Assembly: GCF_025380365.1 (NCBI RefSeq)
Contig: NZ_JAOCQF010000001.1
Span: forward strand, 992,001 to 1,056,000
Direction of reading: 5' to 3'
Source of the DNA: Albidovulum sediminis
GTDB lineage: Bacteria > Pseudomonadota > Alphaproteobacteria > Rhodobacterales > Rhodobacteraceae
Length of the DNA stretch: 64,000 nucleotides
In this document: in pieces, positions 43,311-56,050 of the stretch
How the letters are laid out: every line of letters begins with the position of its first letter
How positions within the stretch are numbered: the stretch's first letter is position 1
Position numbers and translations under genes: made by a program
The notes under the pieces: generated by a model
Database searches by the model: none
Told to the model about the DNA's origin: nothing
What the model saw: only the letters and a program-made list of their open reading frames with translations

Positions 43311-43796
43311 TCAGGGCAGGTCCACTTCGATTGTGCCCCGGATCGGGAACATTGTCGCGTCCATCAGCGGATGCCCCTGACCGTCGAAGTCCAGCGCAAG
43401 GGACCTTTCGCTGATCCTGCGAACGGTGATGGTTCCTTCGCTGAAGATGATGCGCCGCTGCAGCCTGCGCCCCTCGCGCTCGGGATTGAAGAAACTCAGT
43501 TCGACGCGCGCCTTCGGGGCGTTGTCGGCGGGCAGCGTGAAGTCTACCGACCCCTGCGTCAGCACGCTGCGGTCGAACAGGTTGAAATTGATGCTTACCG
43601 GCTGGTCGGTGGCCGTCAGATAGAAGAGGACGCCGGTGTCGTCGCTCGTGACCGTGCTGCTGGCGCCGTCGACGGGATCGAGGTCGTGCGTCGCGCCTTC
43701 CATCGTGACGGTGGCCCGACCCGCTCCCGTCTCGGCAGCGAGGGCGCCGGCGGTGACCAAGGACGAGGTCAGCAGGATCAGGAAAAGAGGCCTCAT
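43311..43796 (-). CDS. Small secreted beta-rich protein A, family unknown
   Basis: A 161-residue protein with a signal peptide (PLFLILLTSSLVTAGALAAE). The mature part is predicted beta-rich: ATVTMEGATHDLDPVDGASS, VLFYLTATDQPVSINFNLFD, PRITVELSFF-like strands, ending SLALDFDGQGHPLMDATMFP and IRGTIEVDLP. The layout resembles the other small secreted protein at 52413: a short leader, strands carrying a ligand-like loop and an identical-style final strand. I do not recognise a family. It faces the pseudo-transglutaminase gene across a 254-base gap and may share its promoter region. Confidence 0.72.
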   Translation of the reverse strand: MRPLFLILLTSSLVTAGALAAETGAGRATVTMEGATHDLDPVDGASSTVTSDDTGVLFYLTATDQPVSINFNLFDRSVLTQGSVDFTLPADNAPKARVELSFFNPEREGRRLQRRIIFSEGTITVRRISERSLALDFDGQGHPLMDATMFPIRGTIEVDLP

Positions 43797-44050
43797 GGCA
43801 GCTCCTTTTCGTGAAAGGATCTTGGCCGGAAGTCCCTCATCATTGCCGCCGCGTGGGGGCAAGTCAATGCAGGGTGGTCGGGACCAACTCGCCCGGATCC
43901 GACAAGCGGCTGGCTTCAATAGCGAAAACCTTGTACCCTTCCATGCTGTTGAACCCTCTTACCGATGCCTTATTGGTGGCCGTTGCGCGTCTGCCGGCAC
44001 TGCGACCTGCCTTTGCCGCAAGTGGGACGGCTCCGAAAACGGAGTCCGCG

Positions 44051-46417
44051 ATGGGTGTTTCCAGACAAGCCAGGCTGGCGTTGAGCGGCGTGCTGTCCTG
44101 CGCGCTGGCGCTTCACATGCCGTGGGCGCCACTACGCGCCGCTGCACAGGAGATGCCCCACGCTGCGCTGTTCGACACATACTATCAAACGCTCGAAGAG
44201 GTTCAGATAAGGCTCAGGTCGGCCAGCCGGGATCTCGGCAGTGTTTCCGATCATCTCCTCTTCAGCGACCCCGAAGAGGTGTTGGACTGGGTGCGCCAGA
44301 ACATCGCCTTCCAGCAATACGCGGGTCTGCTGCGCGGGCCGGACGGCACGCTGCTGGCCGGCGCGGGCAACGCGTTGGACCAGGCAGTGCTTGTGGCGGC
44401 TCTGCTCGGGGATGCGGGATACCAGACACAGGTCGTCCGGGGCCGTCTTTCCGAAGGCGACGCGCGCGCGCTTGTCCTGCGGATGGAGAGGACACCGGCG
44501 GGTGCCCCGCTCGACGCTGAAATCCGCGCCTCGCTTTCCGCGCTGGAACAGTCCGGCGACGCGATTGTCGATGCCGTCGGCGGACTTGTCAGGGCGTGGG
44601 AGGCACCCGGGCCCGATTACGGCGACCTTGCCGAGCGGACGGCGGACGCAGCGGATGCCCTGCTTGCCCGGCTTGACGAAGCGGACTTCTACGCGGGCGG
44701 CAGCGTGCTGGAGGAGTTGGCCGAAGAGGCCGCGGACTACTACTGGACGGAGGCCCGCCTCGGTCCGGCGGATGACTGGACGGCGCTGCACCCGGTGTTC
44801 GATGACCGGCCGCCGGACCCCGTCGAGAGGGGCGAAGCCTTCGCGAATGCGGTTCCCGTCCATCTTCAGCACCGTGTCCGGGTCGACATCACGCTGGAGC
44901 AGAAACTCGGGAAGGCGCTGCGGACCCACTCCCTGCTGTCGGGTTGGGAACGCCCAGCAGCCAACCTGAACGGCGAACCCCTGACCATCACCACCCTCCC
45001 CTTCTCGCTCGACCCCTGGGACCGCCGGGACGATCCCCTGTCGCACGTGACGGAGAACCGGTTGTTCGTGACGCTCTTCCGCAACGAGGTGGCATCCGGG
45101 CTTGCATTCGACCTCGACGGCAATGTCGCTCCTCTGGCAGAGGCGATGGATGCGGCGGGGGCAATGTTCCAGACGCTGGGCAGCAAGGCCAGTGACGCCG
45201 CGGCCGGCATCGGCGCGCTGGGATCGGGCGCCGAGGTGCCGGCGGATGCGGCCGAACTTACGGCGTTGTGGATCGACTTCACGCTGATCGCGCCCGGCGG
45301 AAGGGAAACGACCATCCGGCGCACCGTGCTGGACCGGATCGGCGCCAAGGCCCGGGCCGAAGGCTCAGTCGAGGCGGCGGGCGGGCCGGAATCCTTCCTG
45401 CCGATGATCGGACAGCGCTCGGCCATGGTGTCGATCGGGGACATGCCCGAAGCCTTTTTCCTCGGGCGCTACCTGTCGGCGCAGGCCGGGCAGAGACCCG
45501 TGGTGGAACAACTCGCCCTTCAGTCCGTGGATTTTCAGCCGGACCGGGACCTGGCGGCAACCGAGGGATTCCCGCCGGAAGACTATCGGGCCGCCGAGGT
45601 GTTCCAGTATCTCGATCTTGCCCCGTCCGGCGGCGGGACGATCAGGTATCGGGCACAGCCGGCCCTGGTGATCGTCGGCGACAGGTTCGGTTTTGCTCCC
45701 GGTGGGGAGGCGATTGTCGAGACGTTTGTCGATGTGGTTGCCAATCCCGCCCGGACCCTCTTGCGGAAGGATGGCGATCTGACGGGTGCGGCCCGCGATG
45801 CGGTCACGGCCGGCGTCTGGGACACCGCGCTGGAAGGCTACGCGATCGGCCGCGGCCCGCGGCCCGCGCTTCGCGGAAACGCCCTTGACCACCTCGAAGC
45901 CGCGCTTCGGGAGGGACATGCGCTTGTTGTGCTGAAGCCCGGCGAAACGGACGAAGGGAGCCTTGACGCCTATGGCCCGGAGGCGGCGGCCGGAATGGCG
46001 CGCGAGCTTGCCGCCGGTTTCTGGATCGTCGCGAAAGCGCCGGAAGAAGACGGCGGAAACGATGGATGGTGGTGGCGCATCGCGCCACGGAGCGGTGAAA
46101 CGCTGGGCATCCTTTCCGACGGCAGCGGCGGAGAGATCATCAAGTACTTAATAGTATTATCGATTGGCGCGGCAGTCGCCGGCACCATCAAGTCGGCAAT
46201 CAATCGGCGGGACTGTATTGAGCGGATTTCTCGTCAATCGGGCGCGGATCTGCAATTGCGCGACCCAGACGAGTACGAGTTGCAGGTGTCCAATTGTGGC
46301 ATAGGTTCAATGTTCTGGCCCGCGAACCGGGCGATCCACGAAGCGCTCCGCAGGCACGAGCAGGTGTGCGAGGACAATTTTGCCGTGGCGGCCTTTTCCG
46401 GCGCCTGTTCCGAGTGA
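44051..46417 (+). CDS. Exported transglutaminase-like protein lacking the catalytic cysteine
   Basis: A 788-residue protein. A signal peptide (LALSGVLSCALALHMPWAPL) is followed by a transglutaminase-type core around residues 70-140: EEVLDWVRQNIAFQQYAGLL, then AGAGNALDQAVLVAALLGDA and GYQTQVVRGRL. At the position of the usual catalytic cysteine (GxCxD-type turn before the core helix) there is alanine. Residues 140-690 are an uncharacterised region rich in strands. One membrane helix (IIKYLIVLSIGAAVAGTI, near 700) precedes a 65-residue C-terminal tail with four cysteines. It overlaps the possible GTG start of the next gene. ATG 44051 gives the clean signal; the frame runs further upstream. Confidence 0.78.
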   Translation: MGVSRQARLALSGVLSCALALHMPWAPLRAAAQEMPHAALFDTYYQTLEEVQIRLRSASRDLGSVSDHLLFSDPEEVLDWVRQNIAFQQYAGLLRGPDGTLLAGAGNALDQAVLVAALLGDAGYQTQVVRGRLSEGDARALVLRMERTPAGAPLDAEIRASLSALEQSGDAIVDAVGGLVRAWEAPGPDYGDLAERTADAADALLARLDEADFYAGGSVLEELAEEAADYYWTEARLGPADDWTALHPVFDDRPPDPVERGEAFANAVPVHLQHRVRVDITLEQKLGKALRTHSLLSGWERPAANLNGEPLTITTLPFSLDPWDRRDDPLSHVTENRLFVTLFRNEVASGLAFDLDGNVAPLAEAMDAAGAMFQTLGSKASDAAAGIGALGSGAEVPADAAELTALWIDFTLIAPGGRETTIRRTVLDRIGAKARAEGSVEAAGGPESFLPMIGQRSAMVSIGDMPEAFFLGRYLSAQAGQRPVVEQLALQSVDFQPDRDLAATEGFPPEDYRAAEVFQYLDLAPSGGGTIRYRAQPALVIVGDRFGFAPGGEAIVETFVDVVANPARTLLRKDGDLTGAARDAVTAGVWDTALEGYAIGRGPRPALRGNALDHLEAALREGHALVVLKPGETDEGSLDAYGPEAAAGMARELAAGFWIVAKAPEEDGGNDGWWWRIAPRSGETLGILSDGSGGEIIKYLIVLSIGAAVAGTIKSAINRRDCIERISRQSGADLQLRDPDEYELQVSNCGIGSMFWPANRAIHEALRRHEQVCEDNFAVAAFSGACSE

Positions 46418-46488
46418 CCGGAGGGCACGCCGCGCCTGAAACCGAAACTCCAAAGCCGGCACATGTCCGGTATGGGACACCGAGGGAC

Positions 46489-49400
46489 ATGGTTCCGGGA
46501 CAGGACGCAAAAGGGGTCTTTCCGAGCCGGCTGCTGGCCGTCCTGCTTGGTGCCATCGCCTGGGCTTCACAGGCATCGGCCCAGGAACCGGTTTCGCGCG
46601 TTGCAGAGCAGGCGGAGATCATCGCCGAGGCGCCGGGCGCAGGGTTGGGAAGCCTCGCGTTCCCGCAAGCCGTCATGCGAGAAGGTGCCTACGCCTGGCT
46701 GAGGGTTCCCAAGGACGGTCTCTACATCCTGCGCCTGTCCAGCCCCGGATCGCTCGCCCTGATGAGCTTTGCCAGCGAGAGCGGCGATTACGATAGCAAC
46801 ACACGTCCGACGCAGCACGCACTTCAGACAGGCTTCGGCGAAGCGCCACAGATCGGGCCGGTGCTTCTGAATGCGCAGCGCAAGTTTTTGGTCGGAGCGC
46901 GTGGAGAGACGTCGTCAGAGCTCATCGTCGAGGCGGTCGAGCAGTTCGACCGGCGTGAGCACATGCCGACGGCGCAGGCGGAGATCGGCGCCGGCAGTTG
47001 GCTCATCGCCCGGGACGGCGACCTACGCCTGACCCTACCGCCGATTGGAACGCCGCTTAGCGTCGAGGTCTTCGCGGAGGCGATGGCGCCGTCGAACGCA
47101 ACGCTGGACAGACAGCCGGTTCCGGAGGGCGGGCTGTATCCCTGGCTCTCGTCAAGGCCGTCGGAACTTCTTGTCCGGAGCGCAGGCAAGGGCCCCCTCC
47201 CGTCCCTGGTTCTGGTCCGCATTTCCGCTTCGGATGCCGGCCTGGACGAGCGCGAGCCGAACGCGCTGTCTGCCAACCCCGTCGATCCGTCCAAACGCTT
47301 CCGGGGGACGCTGCTTGCGCAGGGAGACGTGGACCTTCTTAGGTTCAGGGTTGGTACGACGGCCGCCTATCACGTCAGCGTCGAGGGCGGTGCTGCGCGG
47401 GCAAGTCTTGCAGCGGACCTGACAGCCATCGACGGGAAAGGAACGGTCGACATCCTGCACAGGACCGGCCGGGCCGGCGCCGTCGACATCGGGACGGTCG
47501 CACTTCATCCCGGCACTTACGAACTGGCCCTGCGCCGTCATGATCCGCATCCCGAAGCCTCGCCCTACGTGGTGACCTTCGCGCCCGCAAACGCGCCGCC
47601 GCAAGGCCACGAAGTCGAACCGAACGACAGCTTCGAGGCGGCGAACACGCTGGCTGGCCCTCTTGCGGTCATTGGCATGGGCGGAAACGGAGATGCGGAC
47701 GTCTTCTCTTTTTCGGTCCCGGACGAGGCCGCGGGCCATCTCTGGCGCATCACGTCCAGAGGGGCCAGCCGGCTGCGCCTCTTCGACCGGGACCGGGCCA
47801 TGATCTCCGAGCACGCGGACAAAGATGGCGGCGTCTCACTGGAATCGCTGTCGCTCGTTCCCGGGGAATACTTCGTGGAAGTGCTGGCGGAGAATGAGTA
47901 CCGGCTTCGGGCAAGGGATCTCGGCGAGAGGCCCGAGGGCTTCGAAGGCGAGCCGAACGACACCCGGCTGACGGCACAGCCGCTGCAGTTCGGTGTCGAG
48001 GCGGCCGGAGGTTTCCATCGCACCAGGGACACGGACCTGTTCATGTTCGGACTGAACGCCAGGACCGATGTCGAAATCGAGATCCATCCGCCCGGTGAAG
48101 GCGAGATCATGGCCCGGCTGTTTCTTGGCAACAGGCAGCATGGTGGCGACGTCGTGTTCGACGGGGAGGCCCCGGCATACCTGTATCAGGCGCGGCTTCC
48201 GGCCGGAGAGTGGACCCTGCAGATGCGCGCGCTCGAAGGCACGATCTGGTCTTCCTACCGGATCGTGGTGCGCAAGCTGGCCGCAATTGCAAACGGCGAG
48301 CCCGACGATAGCTTGATCGAGGCCGCCATCCTGCCAATGACCGGTGACATTTCGGGTCGGGTGGGTGGTCTTGACCAGCTTGACCATGTCCGGATTCCCC
48401 TGCCCGAGGGTGAAGGGAGCATTGCCATCGCTTGCGACGGCACCGACGCAAGGCTTCGCTGGTCTGTCTGGGACTGGAGGCTGAGGCAGGGAGAGTTGAC
48501 CGGAGGCAGGCTTGCAGCAGCCGATAGCGAATGGCTCGTCCTTCCTTACGCCCCGGATCTTGGTGGGTCGCTGCGTTTGCAGGTCGAAGGCGGAACCATG
48601 AGCGCGGACTATGCCTGCGGCGTGCGCTTTCTGCCTGACAAAGCGCTTGAAAACAGCGTCGCGGAAGCGGTGCTGGCGGGCGATCTGTCACTTGCACCGG
48701 GAAGCGCTCGCAGGTTCGAGCTTGCCTCGAAGGAAGAGCCGGCCGTTGCGCTTGAGCTTGCGCCGGGCAGCCTCGCGATCCTCTCCTGCCGGGACGCCTC
48801 GGGCGGGACCGTCGAGTTCGGAAAATCGGGTTGGCGGTTGCGCAACGCCGTCACCCTGCGGAGTACGCTCGCCACGGGATTGGCCGTGCTGCGGGCAGCG
48901 ACGGCCCCCGAGATCCTGGCTGGAAAGGACAGCAACGGCCATGCGGCAGGCGTCATCACCTGTGCGCTTTTCGGCGTCGACGACATGCGGCGCCCCTCGG
49001 AGACCGGCCCGCCGGCCGCGTTCCGGCCGATTGAGGACGAAACCGGCAAGCCAATCCAAAGTGCGCCGCCGTCACCGGGCCTCGGTGATCTCATCGCGCG
49101 CCCAGCGCCACTGAGACAACCCCGCGGTTCCCTGCCCGTCGCGATCGCCTTCTCCGAGTTGCCCAAGCTGGCCGCCTACGTCGGGACCGGCCAAAGCTTC
49201 CGGACGAGCGCGGCACTTCGGAATACGGGATCGATCGAGATGACACTCGACGTGACCGTTTCCGGCACGGAACCGGGCTGGAAGGTATCGTCGGCACCAG
49301 AGCGGGTGACGCTTGCTCCAGGTCAGACCGCAGCCGTCGGGATCGATGTCGTGGCCGCACCGTGGCAAAGCCCGGTCACGAATTCAGGCCTGGTGCTGCG

Positions 49401-52161
49401 TGCCAGTGACGGCGTGGATTTTGCTGCAGAGATGACCGGCGTGCCGCTCGACCCGTCTGTCGTTCCGGTCGGGCCGATGGTGTACTGGGATGCCCCGGAC
49501 GCCCTGAGGGGTGGCCTCAACGTCTTGCATTACGGGCTGGGCGCGCGGCTGGAATTCGCCGGCGGCAGAAAGCTGGACCCAAGGGCACAGGACGCGCTTG
49601 AACAGGTTCACGATGGCATTGCGCGACACCAGACCGGGATGCTCGTCGAGCGGGAACTGGAGTTCCGCCTGGCGGCGCCCGCCATCCTAGCCGGCGTCAT
49701 GATCCAGCTGCGGTCCAATTCGGATTCGGATGGTTGGCCCGCCGAGGTCATCCTGGAGGCCTCGGAGGACGGGCAATCCTGGCGGCCTGCGGCGCAATCG
49801 GGGCTCGCGACCGTGCATGTCCCGCAATACGTCGTCTTCGACGTGCCCATGCTCGCCAGCCGCCTGAGGGTCGCCTTTCCGCGCTGCAACCTTCCCTGCC
49901 AAAAGGCGGAGTTGCAGGAAATCCAGGCCATTGCGGTTCCCGGCACGCATCCTGAAGGTCTGGCCGCCATCGACGCCGCAGGTCCAGCGGTCGGGGGTCA
50001 CGTCATTTACGCCGAACCACCTCTGCGGGGGGACTGGAACCGGCTTGCCCTCGCACCGCACGAGGGCGACGCAAACGCAATCTGGAACACTCCGGACAAA
50101 CGCCACACGCTCGTCATCGGCTTCCATCAAAACAGGGCGGCATTGCTGGATGCCGTGGCCTGGATCGGCCACCCTACAGACAGGTCGCGGATTGAGCAGG
50201 CCGCCGTCGCCGTCAGCGTCGAGGGGCCCGGCGGTCCATGGCGCGCGATCGGCACCCTTCCTTCCCCTCCGACCGGGATGGAACGGGCTGAACTGAGGTT
50301 CGAAAAACCCGTTTGGGCCCGCTACCTGAAACTGACCCTCGACAGGCCGGAAGGTTCCCGTGACGTCGGCCCTGACAGGATCGAGGCCATCGAGAACCCC
50401 GGCACATCGGTGCTCGGGCTGTGGGAGGACGATCAGCCGAGGGCGGCATACGAAGCGGCGACCGGCGAGGTCGACAAGCCAGCACACCCCCCCGCAGGGG
50501 GAGCTGACCGGCAGACAGCGCGGGACCTGCCGCTCGACATTCCGGTTTATTCCTCGGTTGTCATGGAGCGTAACGAAGACTGGTGGCGCATCGTCGTGCC
50601 GGACGGTCCGCCGAGTGTGTTGAGCTTGTCTTTCGGCGCTCATCTGCCCGACGTCGTCGCGGAGTTGAGCAACCGGAATGGCGATCCGATCAGACTCGAA
50701 GCAACCCTGTCGGACGGCGCAAGGACGGCCGTCTTGGCTCCTGGCGAGCATTTTCTCCGGATCCACGAGCCGCCGCGCTCTGTCATGCTGAGTTGGGACA
50801 CTTCCGGAAGCGTCAGCCCCTACATTCCGCGGACGCTGGCCGCCGTTCGGACCTGGGCGCAATCGCTGCAACCCGGCCGGGATGCGCTGAACCTTCTGCC
50901 GTTCGGAGAGGATGAGCCGCTACTCCAGGGTTTTGCCGAAAGCGCCAAGGAGGTGTGGCCGGCCCTGCGCATGCTGAAGCCCAGGAATTCCAGCGATGCA
51001 GAACACGCGCTGGCCATCGCGGCACGCGCCCTTTCCCAACGTGAAGGGGCACGCGGCGTGGTCATTCTCACGGATGCAGAGGCGGTGTATCGCCCCTATC
51101 TCTGGCCCGAGTTGTTGCGCACGATGCCACGCGTCGTATCCCTGTCGATGGACAGCGACACCCGCAACAACGCCGAGATCATGATGGACTGGGCCGCGCT
51201 GAACCGGGGGCGGTTTCTGCGGGTGACCGGCCCGCTTGGCCTGGCAGACGGGCTGGAGATGGCCGCGGCCCTGTTTCGCGCGCCGAAAGCCTATGAATTG
51301 ACGGCGTCGCTGCAGGAATACAACGAGCCTGAAGGCACGGCGACGCTGCTGATCGACGCGCGCCCGGAGTTTGCGGTTCAGCCTCCGTCAGGCGCGATCG
51401 AACTGATCCTCGATGCCTCCGGCTCGATGTTGCAGAGGATCGAGGGAAAACGCCGGATCGAAGTTGCGCATGCGGCCCTTGTGCATCTTGTCGAGGGCGT
51501 TCTGCCGCCGGGCGTCCCCTTCGCGTTCCGCGCATTCGGCCTTGAAAAGGATGCCTGCCGGACCGAACTGCGGCTGCCCCTTTCTCCCCTGGACCGGAAG
51601 GCGGCGGCGCGCAGCATCCGGGACGTTCCGGCGATCAACCTGGCCAGAACCGCCATTGCCGACAGCCTGTTGGCCGCCGCGCAAGACCTGCGTGATGCGG
51701 ACGAGCCGCGCGTCATCGTGCTGGTGACGGATGGAGAAGAAACCTGCGGCGGAGATCCCGCCGACGCCATCGCGCGCCTTCGCGCGGGCGGGCTGGACAT
51801 CCGCGTCAACATCGTCGGCTTTGCCATCGACGACGCCGACCTTGCGCAGACATTCGAAGCCTGGGCACGGATCGGCGGCGGGTCGTACTTCAGGGCGGAC
51901 GGCCAGGCTGCCCTCGAAGCGGCCGTTGCAGCCGCGCTGAGCCCGCAGTTCGAGATCACCCGGAACCACGCCGATGGATCAACCGAAGTCGTTGCGAACG
52001 GCGCTCTCGGCGCGCAAGTCTCGGTCCCTGCCGGATCACTCACTGTGGCACCCGGGTCCGGAGCGATCGGCGAAGCCATCACACTGCGCCTCGCGCCAGG
52101 CGGGGAGGCCAGGTTGTCCTATGACCCGATGGCGGGCCTGAGCAAGGTTGAGGGGCCATAA
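46489..52161 (+). CDS. Giant exported multidomain protein with EPND repeats, discoidin-like regions and tandem vWA domains
   Basis: An 1,890-residue protein. A signal peptide (SRLLAVLLGAIAWASQASA) is followed by four beta domains each opened by an EPN-type motif (REPNALS near 254, EVEPNDSF near 375, EGEPNDT near 487, NGEPDDS near 602), like PPC/pre-peptidase domains. A NEW3-like sandwich (residues 890-980) follows, then two discoidin-like regions (1053-1150 and 1197-1304). Two vWA domains end it: DTSGSVSPYIP near 1437, and DASGSM near 1641 with VLVTDGEETCGGDP. Both keep the DxSxS metal site. GTG 46414 overlaps the upstream stop (GTGA); ATG 46489 starts at the signal peptide and is preferred. 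Confidence 0.82.
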   Translation: MVPGQDAKGVFPSRLLAVLLGAIAWASQASAQEPVSRVAEQAEIIAEAPGAGLGSLAFPQAVMREGAYAWLRVPKDGLYILRLSSPGSLALMSFASESGDYDSNTRPTQHALQTGFGEAPQIGPVLLNAQRKFLVGARGETSSELIVEAVEQFDRREHMPTAQAEIGAGSWLIARDGDLRLTLPPIGTPLSVEVFAEAMAPSNATLDRQPVPEGGLYPWLSSRPSELLVRSAGKGPLPSLVLVRISASDAGLDEREPNALSANPVDPSKRFRGTLLAQGDVDLLRFRVGTTAAYHVSVEGGAARASLAADLTAIDGKGTVDILHRTGRAGAVDIGTVALHPGTYELALRRHDPHPEASPYVVTFAPANAPPQGHEVEPNDSFEAANTLAGPLAVIGMGGNGDADVFSFSVPDEAAGHLWRITSRGASRLRLFDRDRAMISEHADKDGGVSLESLSLVPGEYFVEVLAENEYRLRARDLGERPEGFEGEPNDTRLTAQPLQFGVEAAGGFHRTRDTDLFMFGLNARTDVEIEIHPPGEGEIMARLFLGNRQHGGDVVFDGEAPAYLYQARLPAGEWTLQMRALEGTIWSSYRIVVRKLAAIANGEPDDSLIEAAILPMTGDISGRVGGLDQLDHVRIPLPEGEGSIAIACDGTDARLRWSVWDWRLRQGELTGGRLAAADSEWLVLPYAPDLGGSLRLQVEGGTMSADYACGVRFLPDKALENSVAEAVLAGDLSLAPGSARRFELASKEEPAVALELAPGSLAILSCRDASGGTVEFGKSGWRLRNAVTLRSTLATGLAVLRAATAPEILAGKDSNGHAAGVITCALFGVDDMRRPSETGPPAAFRPIEDETGKPIQSAPPSPGLGDLIARPAPLRQPRGSLPVAIAFSELPKLAAYVGTGQSFRTSAALRNTGSIEMTLDVTVSGTEPGWKVSSAPERVTLAPGQTAAVGIDVVAAPWQSPVTNSGLVLRASDGVDFAAEMTGVPLDPSVVPVGPMVYWDAPDALRGGLNVLHYGLGARLEFAGGRKLDPRAQDALEQVHDGIARHQTGMLVERELEFRLAAPAILAGVMIQLRSNSDSDGWPAEVILEASEDGQSWRPAAQSGLATVHVPQYVVFDVPMLASRLRVAFPRCNLPCQKAELQEIQAIAVPGTHPEGLAAIDAAGPAVGGHVIYAEPPLRGDWNRLALAPHEGDANAIWNTPDKRHTLVIGFHQNRAALLDAVAWIGHPTDRSRIEQAAVAVSVEGPGGPWRAIGTLPSPPTGMERAELRFEKPVWARYLKLTLDRPEGSRDVGPDRIEAIENPGTSVLGLWEDDQPRAAYEAATGEVDKPAHPPAGGADRQTARDLPLDIPVYSSVVMERNEDWWRIVVPDGPPSVLSLSFGAHLPDVVAELSNRNGDPIRLEATLSDGARTAVLAPGEHFLRIHEPPRSVMLSWDTSGSVSPYIPRTLAAVRTWAQSLQPGRDALNLLPFGEDEPLLQGFAESAKEVWPALRMLKPRNSSDAEHALAIAARALSQREGARGVVILTDAEAVYRPYLWPELLRTMPRVVSLSMDSDTRNNAEIMMDWAALNRGRFLRVTGPLGLADGLEMAAALFRAPKAYELTASLQEYNEPEGTATLLIDARPEFAVQPPSGAIELILDASGSMLQRIEGKRRIEVAHAALVHLVEGVLPPGVPFAFRAFGLEKDACRTELRLPLSPLDRKAAARSIRDVPAINLARTAIADSLLAAAQDLRDADEPRVIVLVTDGEETCGGDPADAIARLRAGGLDIRVNIVGFAIDDADLAQTFEAWARIGGGSYFRADGQAALEAAVAAALSPQFEITRNHADGSTEVVANGALGAQVSVPAGSLTVAPGSGAIGEAITLRLAPGGEARLSYDPMAGLSKVEGP

Positions 52162-52412
52162 GGGCAGCCCGGTCCGGCGCCAGCGCAGGGAGACGGTGCG
52201 AAGCACTTCGCCGAATTCGGCCTTGGCAGCATCCGCATGTCATCATCGCGATGCACATCAGCCTTGGCGGGTGACAGGTGAGCTCAAGGCTACCCCCCGA
52301 CGCCTCGACCTCGGCACAGATCGCGCCGATGTGGCGGAATGCAGCGGGGCAGCACGTCACCTCCGGATCGATTGATACTCGACCCGACCCGTCTGATGCT
52401 GGACCTGAACGA

Positions 52413-52937
52413 CTAGGGCTGCGGGATCGTCACCGAAAAGCTGCCGGAAATTCCGACCTCCGGCTCGGACGTGTCAAGCTGCCCGGTCGATTGATCGTAT
52501 CGGATGAGACTGCCTTCGAAGGACCCCGACATCGTCGTGCCGTCAAAGGACACGCGGAAGGCGCTGATCGCGCCTCCGTTCTCACCGGCTGCCAGGGGGC
52601 GCATGAAATTGTCGTCGATGAGCCAGAGGTCGACGGGCCGCGTCTCGTCATCGTACCTGATGAAGGAGAGCTGGATCATCGGGTTCGCGGGCTTGCCCTC
52701 GGGCCCCACGCTTGCGGCGAGAACGTGGTAGAACATCCCCGATCCGATGTCGTCGACCTTGTTCGAAGATCGTCCGCGTTCCTTGTCCAGCCAGGACTGA
52801 AGGGCGAGGTCCTCGCCGTTGACGGTGGCGGAAACGGTTCCCGTGGTCTCGTAGCGGGCGGAGAAGTCCGAGGCGTGGCCCTGCGCGGTCAACCCGATCA
52901 GCGCCAAAGCGCCCGTCGCAACCAGTGCCGTCCTCAT
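52413..52937 (-). CDS. Small secreted beta-rich protein B, family unknown
   Basis: A 174-residue protein with a signal peptide (ALVATGALALIGLTAQGHAS). The mature part starts DFSARYETTGTVSATVNGED and ends EPEVGISGSFSVTIPQP; a conserved-looking centre reads MIQLSFIRYDDETRPVDLWL. Size, export and layout resemble the secreted protein at 43311, which lies on the other side of the two large genes. I do not recognise a family. It is convergent with the giant vWA gene; the 251 bases between them hold no gene or repeat I can see. Confidence 0.72.
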   Translation of the reverse strand: MRTALVATGALALIGLTAQGHASDFSARYETTGTVSATVNGEDLALQSWLDKERGRSSNKVDDIGSGMFYHVLAASVGPEGKPANPMIQLSFIRYDDETRPVDLWLIDDNFMRPLAAGENGGAISAFRVSFDGTTMSGSFEGSLIRYDQSTGQLDTSEPEVGISGSFSVTIPQP

Positions 52938-53944: not shown

Positions 53945-56050
53945 ATGCGCGCGGCCCTTCCCCAAGCCACCGGCACCGTCGACCGCGACGGGGTGAAGCT
54001 CCATTACGAGATCTACGGCGAAGGAACCCGCACAATCCTTTTCGTGCCGACATGGTCGTTGATTCATTCGCGCAGTTGGAAGGCGCAGGTGCCCTATTTC
54101 AGCGAGCATTTTCGCGTCGTCACCTATGACCCGCGCGGAAATGGCAAATCGGACAGGCCCGATCACCCCGACAGCTATGCTGTTGACCTCGTCATCGAGG
54201 ATGTGATCGCAGTGATGGATGCGACTGCCACAGGCAGTGCCACGCTCGTCGGCCATTCGTTCAGCAGCGCAATCGCCTTTGCCGTTGCAGCGGATTGGCC
54301 CGAGCGGGTCGATGCCGTCGTCTCGACCTGCGGCTGGAGCCCGATCGTGCCGCCCTATCCCCATCGCGCGGCCGCCTATGCCGCCGATCCGCCAGAGCAT
54401 CCCGAAGGCTGGCAGAAGTACAACGCCGCCTATTGGGTCCGGGATTACCCCGATTTCGCACGGTTCTTCCTTGGAAAGGTCCATAACGAGCCCCATTCCA
54501 CAAAGCAGCACGAGGACGCAGTCGCCTGGGCAATGGACGGCGACGGCGAGATGTTGAAGATGACGATGGAAGCGCGCGACGGAGCCGTCGAGATCAACGA
54601 GGCAATGTATCGTCGCGTGCGTTGTCCCAGCTTGGTCATCTATGGGGACCGGGACGAGATCACGCCGCCCGCGACGTCGGTCCGGATCGCGGAACTGACG
54701 CGCGGCGAACTCTGTGTCCGCCATGGTGGCGGCCATGGCCTCCATGCCCGCTTTCCGGCCTGGTTCAACTTGACGATGCGTGATTTCCTTGCGCGGCACC
54801 TCGGGACGTGGCGGCCGAATCCGCCCAAGGGCGCCAAGGTGGTCTCGCGCCCGAAGCGGGTACTCTATCTGTCCTCTCCCATCGGGCTCGGTCATGCCCG
54901 CCGCGACCTTGCCGTGACTCGCGAATTGCGCAGGCTCCATCCGGATCTGCAGGTAGACTGGCTGGCGCAGGATCCGGTGACGCGCTTTCTGGCAGCCAAC
55001 GACGAAACGCTGCACCCGGCAAGCGGGCGCTTGGCCAACGAATCCGCCCACATCGAGGCGGAGGCCGGCGAGCATGACCTGAACGCCTTTCAGGCGATCC
55101 GCGACATGGACGAGATCCTGATCAAGAATTTCATGGTCTTTCAAGATGTTCTGGAACAGGATTGCTACGACCTCGTGATCGCCGACGAGGCGTGGGACGT
55201 CGATCACTACTGGCACGAACATCCGGAGTTGAAGAAGGCGCAGGTCGCCTGGTTCACCGATTTCGTGGGCTGGGTGCCATTCATGGATAACGGCCCGCGC
55301 GAGGCCTTCCTGACCACCGATTACAACGCCGAGATGATCGGCCATGTGGAGACCCACCCCGAGGTGCGTGACCGCGCGATCTTTGTCGGGGGGCCGGAAG
55401 ATATCGCCGACCTGTCCTTTGGCGATGGCCTGCCCCTGATGCGCGACTGGGTGCCCAAGCACTACGAGTTCTCCGACTACATCATCGGCACACATCCCGC
55501 CGATTTCGGCCCACGCTCGGACCTTCGCGCCGAGTTCGGCTATGATGACGGGCGCAAGACCTGCATCGTGGCTGTGGGCGGCTCGGGCGTCGGGGCACAG
55601 CTGATCCGCCGCATCCTTTCAGCCTATCCCCATGCCCAAGCTCGCATCCCCGATCTGCGCATGATCGTCGTGACCGGCCCTCGGCTTGACCCCGCTGCGT
55701 TCGAGTGGCCGAAAGGAGTGGAGGCCCGCGCTTTCGTGCCCGATCTCGATCGTCATCTCGCGGCCTGCGATCTGGCGCTTGTGCAGGGCGGCCTGACCAC
55801 CTGCATGGAACTGGCCGCTGCCGGCACGCCGTTCCTCTATTTCCCGTTGCGCAACCACTTTGAGCAGAATTTCCACGTTGCTGCCCGGCTCGACCGCTAT
55901 AACGCCGGCCGCCGGATGGCCTATGCGGAGGCCACCCCTGAGAGGATTGCCGAGGCAATGCTTCAAGAACTGCGTGCGCCACGCATCCCCAGCCCTGTCG
56001 CGCGCAACGGCGCGCAGCGTGCGGCGGCGATGCTGGCCGATCTCTTGTGA
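53945..56050 (+). CDS. Bifunctional fusion: alpha/beta hydrolase + UDP-glycosyltransferase-like domain
   Basis: A 701-residue two-domain protein. Residues 1 to about 290 are an alpha/beta hydrolase: oxyanion region VPTWSLIHSRSWKAQV, nucleophile Ser in LVGHSFSSAIAFAV (near 104), acid D in VIYGDRDEITPP, and catalytic His in HGGGHGLHARFP. Residues 303-701 resemble a GT1-type glycosyltransferase: RVLYLSSPIGLGHARRDLAV (acceptor-domain Rossmann) and VPDLDRHLAACDLALVQGG then TTCMELAAAGTPFLYFPLRN (donor site). The hinge PKGAKVVSRPKRVLYL joins them. One chain thus may both cleave and glycosylate a small molecule; the substrate is unknown. It lies in one operon with TetR. Confidence 0.88.
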   Translation: MRAALPQATGTVDRDGVKLHYEIYGEGTRTILFVPTWSLIHSRSWKAQVPYFSEHFRVVTYDPRGNGKSDRPDHPDSYAVDLVIEDVIAVMDATATGSATLVGHSFSSAIAFAVAADWPERVDAVVSTCGWSPIVPPYPHRAAAYAADPPEHPEGWQKYNAAYWVRDYPDFARFFLGKVHNEPHSTKQHEDAVAWAMDGDGEMLKMTMEARDGAVEINEAMYRRVRCPSLVIYGDRDEITPPATSVRIAELTRGELCVRHGGGHGLHARFPAWFNLTMRDFLARHLGTWRPNPPKGAKVVSRPKRVLYLSSPIGLGHARRDLAVTRELRRLHPDLQVDWLAQDPVTRFLAANDETLHPASGRLANESAHIEAEAGEHDLNAFQAIRDMDEILIKNFMVFQDVLEQDCYDLVIADEAWDVDHYWHEHPELKKAQVAWFTDFVGWVPFMDNGPREAFLTTDYNAEMIGHVETHPEVRDRAIFVGGPEDIADLSFGDGLPLMRDWVPKHYEFSDYIIGTHPADFGPRSDLRAEFGYDDGRKTCIVAVGGSGVGAQLIRRILSAYPHAQARIPDLRMIVVTGPRLDPAAFEWPKGVEARAFVPDLDRHLAACDLALVQGGLTTCMELAAAGTPFLYFPLRNHFEQNFHVAARLDRYNAGRRMAYAEATPERIAEAMLQELRAPRIPSPVARNGAQRAAAMLADLL

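Follow-up and report, generated by a model that had tools for sequence, protein, structure and literature searches.

A stand-alone pseudo-transglutaminase and a giant tandem-vWA protein are conserved gene neighbours across distant bacterial lineages

In a 64,000-nucleotide stretch of the Albidovulum sediminis genome (the window; NCBI RefSeq assembly GCF_025380365.1, contig NZ_JAOCQF010000001.1, positions 992,001 to 1,056,000 of the forward strand), two large proteins with export-type starts, here called B and C, are encoded side by side, and small secreted proteins, A and D, are encoded to either side on the opposite strand. B has the fold of a transglutaminase and has lost the catalytic residues, C is made of binding modules, and their genes are conserved as neighbours in distant lineages, forming a pair that is rare and patchy in its distribution. 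The reading we put forward, to which we give about an even chance, is that B and C make up an unnamed exported complex of two proteins for binding or adhesion, with C gripping matrix or glycan and B tethering or assembling C. Export signals and signal peptides of the window proteins were assigned by eye, no predictor being used. An earlier note, made from the sequence of the window alone, had proposed all four genes as a new exported system, and we report below how its parts fared.

Results

B and C recur together in other genomes

The first B-C pairs outside the window came from related genomes, namely G011 (Defluviimonas sp. WL0075, of the same genus as the window genome and identical to scan locus L050), G570, G477 and G527, and from a plasmid of Indioceanicola profundi. 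A plasmid origin of the pair was considered and rejected, as B retrieved no plasmid match and C matched in 13 records, just one of them at length (Indioceanicola profundi, with B adjoining). A collection of species genomes was scanned once with the C alignment, and the best 80 of 158 relatives, lying in 76 distinct loci, were kept; a scan with C as a single sequence had found nothing. A script split these loci into 48 with a giant C and 28 with a short vWA protein, and moving L094, L098 and L101 (open reading frames [ORFs] of 639-804 aa) to the short group gave 45 and 31, respectively.

B, as detected by its profile (A3), adjoins C in 34 of the 45 giant-C loci and adjoins none of the 31 short vWA proteins, which serve as the control in the same scan. 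Among loci where both flanks span 3.5 kb or more, B is found at 23/26 giant C and at 0/25 short vWA proteins. The weakest B match kept was a cut fragment in L070, at an E value of 2.2e-10. The control proteins (L090, L092-L103, L105-L113 and L115-L123) are mostly about 540-830 aa long, with a few shorter or longer, and their vWA domains are 41-54 percent identical to the second vWA domain of C. The earlier note's view of B and C as two large exported proteins belonging side by side is therefore borne out in other genomes, where they recur together rather than never co-occurring. Of the 11 giant C genes without B, six lie no more than 250 nt from the left contig end (L054, L071, L078, L079, L081 and L114), one lies within 180 nt of the right contig end (L065), and one has flanks of 7.7 and 1.9 kb (L088); the other three are described below.

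Gene order among the 34 pairs is mixed, with B first in 19, C first in 11, and B on the opposite strand in 4. The stop-to-stop frames overlap or lie at most 160 nt apart in 29 of the 30 same-strand pairs, the gap in L066 being 3.1 kb. When the neighbours of 50 loci were clustered, B and C alone recurred, and the next family appeared in 5/50. The mixed order would also suit a reading in which B and C act on different things and owe their proximity to variable regions that collect exported proteins. The surroundings of the window pair are indeed variable, since two of the genes beside it lack a close relative among 21 congeners, and for that reason no insertion boundary (empty site) could be drawn when one was sought in the genus. 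Nevertheless, the contrast of 34/45 with 0/31, the mostly tight spacing, and a correlation between B and C distances that exceeds all 10,000 permutations (see below) make this reading highly improbable.

Per record titles, the pair is hosted by Alpha-, Beta- and Gammaproteobacteria, by Desulfobulbaceae and Desulfofustis (Thermodesulfobacteriota), by a Caldilineaceae metagenome-assembled genome (MAG; Chloroflexota) and a MAG labelled Chloroflexi (L067), and by Desertimonas flava (Actinomycetota). Many of these hosts are MAGs whose labels may err, and the label Exiguobacterium of L086 appears wrong. Strain-named hosts are Oceanibium sediminis O448, Defluviimonas sp. WL0075, Loktanella sp. Alg231-35, Alcaligenes endophyticus DSM 100498, Rhizobium wuzhouense W44, Bowmanella dokdonensis JCM 30855 and Desertimonas flava SYSU D60003. 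The loci are partly non-independent, as L070 and L087 come from one genome, L074 and L083 come from another, and L079 and L081 have similar titles.

Three giant-C loci have other surroundings. In Sulfurovum (L063:14338-17787), giant C is followed by an overlapping 1150-aa protein with no detectable transglutaminase domain. The last third of this protein weakly resembles the C-terminal half of B (E 0.003 by hmmsearch, against 2.4 for the best reversed control; E 0.0034 and a probability of 9.5 percent by hhalign), and it is possible that its front end has been swapped. At L075:15686-18394, a met-zincin protease (DUF4953/DUF5117) stands almost directly after a giant C lacking B, and no B candidate was seen near the giant C of L087.

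Coupling, apparent re-pairing and patchy distribution

The alignments of B (A4, 31 members) and C (A5, 38 members) have 28 loci in common. A4 omits four B proteins that are broken, cut or very long (those of L059, L084, L086 and L070) and the plasmid copy, while A5 omits L072, L080, L081 and L091 as well as the cut C of L054, L059, L071, L086 and L114. Over the 28 loci, the distance matrices of B and C correlate with an r of 0.40, a value reached by 0/10,000 permutations, the maximum of which was 0.33. B is the more variable partner, with a mean tree distance of 3.8 vs 2.6 for C. In the C tree, the window and Defluviimonas sp. WL0075 group as sisters (support 0.993), which they do not in the B tree, a comparison limited by the long branches of the latter; between these two genomes, C is 49 percent identical, B is 31-34 percent identical, and the gene order is reversed. 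Because the order flips and the trees largely conflict while the genes remain together, the partners seem to get re-paired.

The pair is found in 2/22 genomes of the genus. The B profile matched 5/295 genomes of the family, one of them (G056) without C, and 6/349 genomes of the phylum, its own included, with the other five matched in the transglutaminase part only. The window's B as the sole query matched 1/385 genomes of the class, which was its own. A search with C matched 21/101 genomes, those beyond the window, G011 and G033 solely through the last vWA domain.

B has a transglutaminase fold and has lost the catalytic residues

Against Pfam, B of the window retrieves Transglut_core weakly, at an E value of 0.006, which is under the curated cut-off. 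The assignment is nevertheless firm because it is upheld by the family alignment and by related large proteins. Active transglutaminase-like peptidases carry a Cys-His-Asp triad, the columns of which we take to be those picked by aligning the family to the motif of active enzymes. At the Cys column, the 31 aligned members have Ala (19), Ser (9), Asp (2) or Thr (1), and no member has Cys. The His column has Tyr in 27 and His in 4, and the Asp column has His in 25, Asp in 4, Tyr in 1 and Gln in 1. A wider alignment, in which some places are duplicates, likewise has Cys in 0/40 of the rows with a letter at that column, and the family has a constant GN..D signature where active enzymes carry the cysteine. 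The pseudo-transglutaminase identity of B, which the earlier note had proposed, is thus upheld. Rescue of the active site by Ser108 together with His247 was considered and rejected as not general, given that 19/31 members have Ala. In the window, the former His and Asp positions are encoded at 44738-44740 and 44789-44791 (B residues 230 and 247) and have become Tyr and His in most B proteins; this consistent double change of His to Tyr and Asp to His may mark a new pocket.

The AlphaFold model of B has a mean predicted local distance difference test score (pLDDT) of 77 and a predicted template modelling score (pTM) of 0.80. Foldseek retrieved no match for this model in the PDB at E < 0.001; its weak matches include the transglutaminase-like or putative protease chains 3isr and 3kd4, and the axoneme chain 8glv_Eb, which we take to be DRC7, a protein with a transglutaminase-type domain. 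The B family profile had no match among PDB sequences up to an E value of 10. No NCBIfam family matches the window's B, and the 31 members yielded one weak NCBIfam match below 0.01 only (CptA).

After the WWRxDPxTG-like motif, the B proteins end in tails of 80-168 residues, with at least two Cys in 29/31. The earlier note had placed a membrane helix near the end of B, and a hydropathy peak of 1.73 is indeed present there in the window. Peaks of at least 1.6 occur in the tails of 16/31 members and of at least 1.2 in 28/31, but the bodies of 7/31 B proteins also reach 1.6 somewhere, so that a membrane helix in the tail is a borderline prediction from hydropathy. In Rhizobium wuzhouense (L084:14154-18572), a B relative carries about 700 further residues, rich in Pro, Gly and repeats, past the WWRxDPxTG-type motif.

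B is kin to the inactive transglutaminases of RHS exoproteins

The nearest relatives of the first domain of B outside the pairs are large ORFs, with 13 matches in 11/274 genomes of the class of G825, and all 13 are restricted to this first domain. When ten of the large relatives were compared with Pfam, seven retrieved RHS_repeat or DUF6531 (2/5 in one set and 5/5 in another), and the other three retrieved Transglut_core only; five of the ten combine Transglut_core, DUF6531 and RHS_repeat. Inactive transglutaminases are described at the head of RHS polymorphic exoproteins in Zhang et al. 2012 (PMC3482391), which also proposes surface anchoring through peptide binding for this domain. The first domain of B belongs to this type. 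Similar to the RHS versions, it is an N-terminal domain of the same family with the catalytic residues lost, in a protein whose export we assign by eye. Unlike RHS exoproteins, B stands by itself as a protein of about 790 aa. It has beta domains, a WWRxDPxTG-type motif and a Cys/Gly-rich tail of its own, lacks RHS repeats, and has C as its partner. In G056 (L006:5315-19990), a full-length B relative stands without C by a separate RHS/YD-repeat gene and a PEGA/TPR protein, part of which resembles a beta-helix.

This kinship, together with the apparent swapping of B, keeps in play a competition system akin to the RHS polymorphic toxins, in which C would carry or present B, a membrane-acting effector with a variable tail, and the small neighbours would provide immunity. 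Such a system would be in keeping with the RHS_repeat and DUF6531 domains of the large relatives, with the RHS gene adjoining the B relative of G056, with the greater variability of B, and with small secreted or lipoprotein genes, similar in design by look, near the pairs L061, L062, L066, L069, L072 and L076. However, no toxin domain was found in the window's B or C (Pfam, NCBIfam) or in the 31 B members (NCBIfam, with the weak CptA match alone). RHS_repeat and DUF6531 are absent from the B and C proteins scanned, which are those of the window and G011, the B of G477, L068 and L084, and the C of L063 and L091. A regular expression for RHS over the pair loci was uninformative, as it flagged 1/5 RHS-bearing loci. 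Moreover, no small neighbour is constant over the 50 loci, comparison of the small families did not support homology, and the tails of B vary among members yet retain Cys, as in a structural domain. We therefore consider a toxin system rather unlikely and prefer capture or adhesion, because neither a toxin domain nor a constant immunity gene was found.

C is built of binding modules with two conserved metal sites

The domains that the earlier note had read in C, namely EPND-type repeats, a NEW3-like domain, two discoidin-like regions and two vWA domains (Table 1), were recovered by Pfam, by the family profile and by a model of the last 1010 residues. The C family profile matches the tandem binding domains of a collagenase chain, 5iku_A, at an E value of 1.2e-12, and the NEW3-like assignment is further based on Ig-like matches in the window protein and on a model that begins all-beta. 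Both vWA domains carry the DxSxS ... T/S ... D motif of vWA adhesion proteins bearing a metal ion-dependent adhesion site (MIDAS), and all ten MIDAS residues that were compared are the same in 38/38 aligned relatives. Among six giant C proteins outside the alignment, the second MIDAS motif was found in six and the first in five, that of L080 being missed by the pattern. Both metal-ion sites are thus retained, and metal-dependent ligand binding is predicted.

The model of the last 1010 residues, made with 38 sequences, has a pLDDT of 90 and a pTM of 0.75. Its top PDB match is the tandem-vWA protein PTMP1 of the mussel byssus, and other leading matches are a Micromonospora sialidase with a galactose-binding module, factor V/VIII, ZmpB with tandem CBM32, and neuropilin b1b2. 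These matches are local, and whole-chain TM-scores are low.

Locus layout and the small flanking proteins

The features of the locus are collected in Table 1. The earlier note had suggested that B and C overlap through GTGA. This sequence is present at 46414-46417, at the end of B, but the overlap itself is unlikely. The ATG at 46489 has GAGG just upstream and a signal-peptide-like start directly after it, and for this reason it is probably the start of C, leaving a gap of about 70 bp between the two genes. Beyond the pair, at window positions 53945-56050, lies a 701-aa ORF that by eye is an alpha/beta hydrolase fused to a glycosyltransferase-like half, with partial matches only in the 21 congeners.

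Table 1. Features of the B-C locus in window coordinates
Feature	Position	Strand	Remarks
A, small secreted orphan protein, 161 aa	43311..43796	-	divergent from B
B, exported pseudo-transglutaminase, 788 aa	44051..46417	+	start picked at 44051
B transglutaminase-fold domain, residues about 60-260	44228..44830	+	usual Cys position is Ala108
B WWRxDPxTG-type motif (residue 674 on) and Cys/Gly-rich, moderately hydrophobic tail	46070..46414	+	
C, giant exported multidomain protein, 1890 aa	46489..52161	+	
C PPC / collagen-binding-domain-like repeats (EPND-type motifs)	47326..48528 (approximate)	+	Pfam PPC E 0.003, below cut-off
C NEW3-like Ig domain	49129..49458 (approximate)	+	NPCBM_assoc E 2.1e-5 in G011 relative
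C tandem discoidin (F5/8C) domains	49486..50418 (approximate)	+	F5_F8_type_C E 1.7e-8
C vWA domain 1	50782..51288	+	MIDAS D1437, S1439, S1441, S1502, D1529
C vWA domain 2	51385..51963	+	MIDAS D1642, S1644, S1646, T1721, D1748; VWA E 3.1e-10
D, small secreted beta-rich protein, accessory at most	52413..52937	-	convergent with C

The two small flanking genes are present on the opposite strand, as the earlier note had described, and the four-gene system that it built on them does not hold as a conserved unit. A had no confident relative besides itself in 101 related genomes and is an orphan, with at most a putative link to B and C. The D family occurs in 17/198 genomes of the Rhodobacteraceae family. 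Six related genomes carry a C gene or what is left of one (G000, G011, G033, G477, G570 and G527), and D lies near C in three of them, namely beside the window's own C and in G011 and G033, where the C remnant of G033 is apparently cut by a Mu-type transposase gene. Seven further D loci had no B or C, and among the 76 scan loci a D relative was found in just one, L050, i.e., in 1/45 giant-C loci. As such, D accompanies C in a few Rhodobacteraceae only, D being mostly apart from C, and neither A nor D is core. The similar design that the note saw in A and D was not supported as homology, and homology of D with small proteins near other pairs was rejected likewise (hhalign probability at most 12 percent). 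A second small secreted family is shared by a Rhodobacteraceae locus (L027:12241-12765) and two distant pair loci (L072:9476-9994 and L076:8784-9302), and the one member compared with Pfam had no match.

Discussion

We infer export, complex formation, surface tethering by B and ligand binding by C. In the binding or adhesion complex that we favour, C would be an extended extracellular or periplasmic protein whose PPC, discoidin and metal-dependent vWA domains grip a surface made of peptide, collagen-like material or glycan. B would hold C at the cell surface or assemble it, with the dead transglutaminase pocket binding peptide without cutting, as has been suggested for this domain in RHS toxins, and with the Cys/Gly-rich tail sitting in or on the membrane or mediating oligomerisation. 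Actinomycetota and Chloroflexota are not known to have an outer membrane, and pairs occur in an actinomycete (L104) and a Chloroflexota MAG (L091); a role tied to the outer membrane is therefore disfavoured.

Several points weigh against this complex. The modules of C are promiscuous, a surface location for B and C is a guess, and 15/31 B tails have no clear transmembrane helix. Giant C stands without a B detectable by profile in L063, L075 and L087 despite flanks of 9.3 kb or more to either side of each. The query C of L050, L051 and L055 (G011, G570 and G527) had been obtained through searches with B, so that the pair count free of this bias is 31/42. Lastly, the B and C trees agree in just 5/25 splits, and the pair is therefore not one stably co-inherited unit.

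MoxR-vWA-transglutaminase operons also pair vWA and transglutaminase-fold proteins, which makes a periplasmic chaperone or assembly pair, maturing envelope complexes in an analogous way, a further explanation to weigh. In contrast to those operons, the B-C pair has no conserved third neighbour over the 50 loci, and hence no ATPase commonly beside it as judged by clustering, no MoxR profile having been run. Its partner is giant and exported, and the glycan- and matrix-type modules of C are atypical of MoxR operons. Although the vWA proteins of MoxR systems are termed peptide-binding co-chaperones in PMC7159879, we regard a chaperone pair as quite improbable.

The binding or adhesion complex can be compared with other known proteins. 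RloB, per PMC12239564, has seven membrane helices and an inactive transglutaminase fold that is predicted to lie on the periplasmic side. B resembles RloB in its inactive fold; unlike RloB, it lacks a seven-helix part, as its hydropathy offers a borderline tail segment at most plus scattered peaks in the body, and its partner is C, no ATP-grasp or retropepsin being a common neighbour. C resembles PTMP1 (PDB 4cn9), solved with zinc in the MIDAS, in its tandem vWA domains. However, PTMP1 is an animal protein, and C adds PPC, NEW3-like and discoidin domains; we claim no common descent beyond the vWA fold. Factor V/VIII, neuropilin b1b2, the CBM32 of ZmpB and the Micromonospora sialidase have a fold like the middle of C, a resemblance at the level of modules only.

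A search of the open-access literature, with subscription papers and preprints outside its coverage, retrieved no description of the B-C pair among the entries listed. The newness claimed in the earlier note therefore holds insofar as we came upon no named system of this composition, but it does not extend to the pseudo-transglutaminase domain itself, which PMC3482391 already describes in RHS toxins.

With these results, what were two hypothetical proteins become a defined pair that can be tested, has invariant metal sites and occurs in strain-named hosts. The dead transglutaminase domain of RHS toxins also exists as a protein in its own right with another giant partner, which offers a direct way of asking what the domain binds. 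A bolder proposition, of which we are rather doubtful, is a new exported recognition system of two components that is found in several phyla. In it, C as a constant, giant and metal-dependent binding protein would be re-paired with an interchangeable, faster-evolving B that sets specificity. If this were true, B would set, e.g., self or neighbour recognition or the surface that is gripped, and an enzyme pocket would have been turned into a peptide reader.

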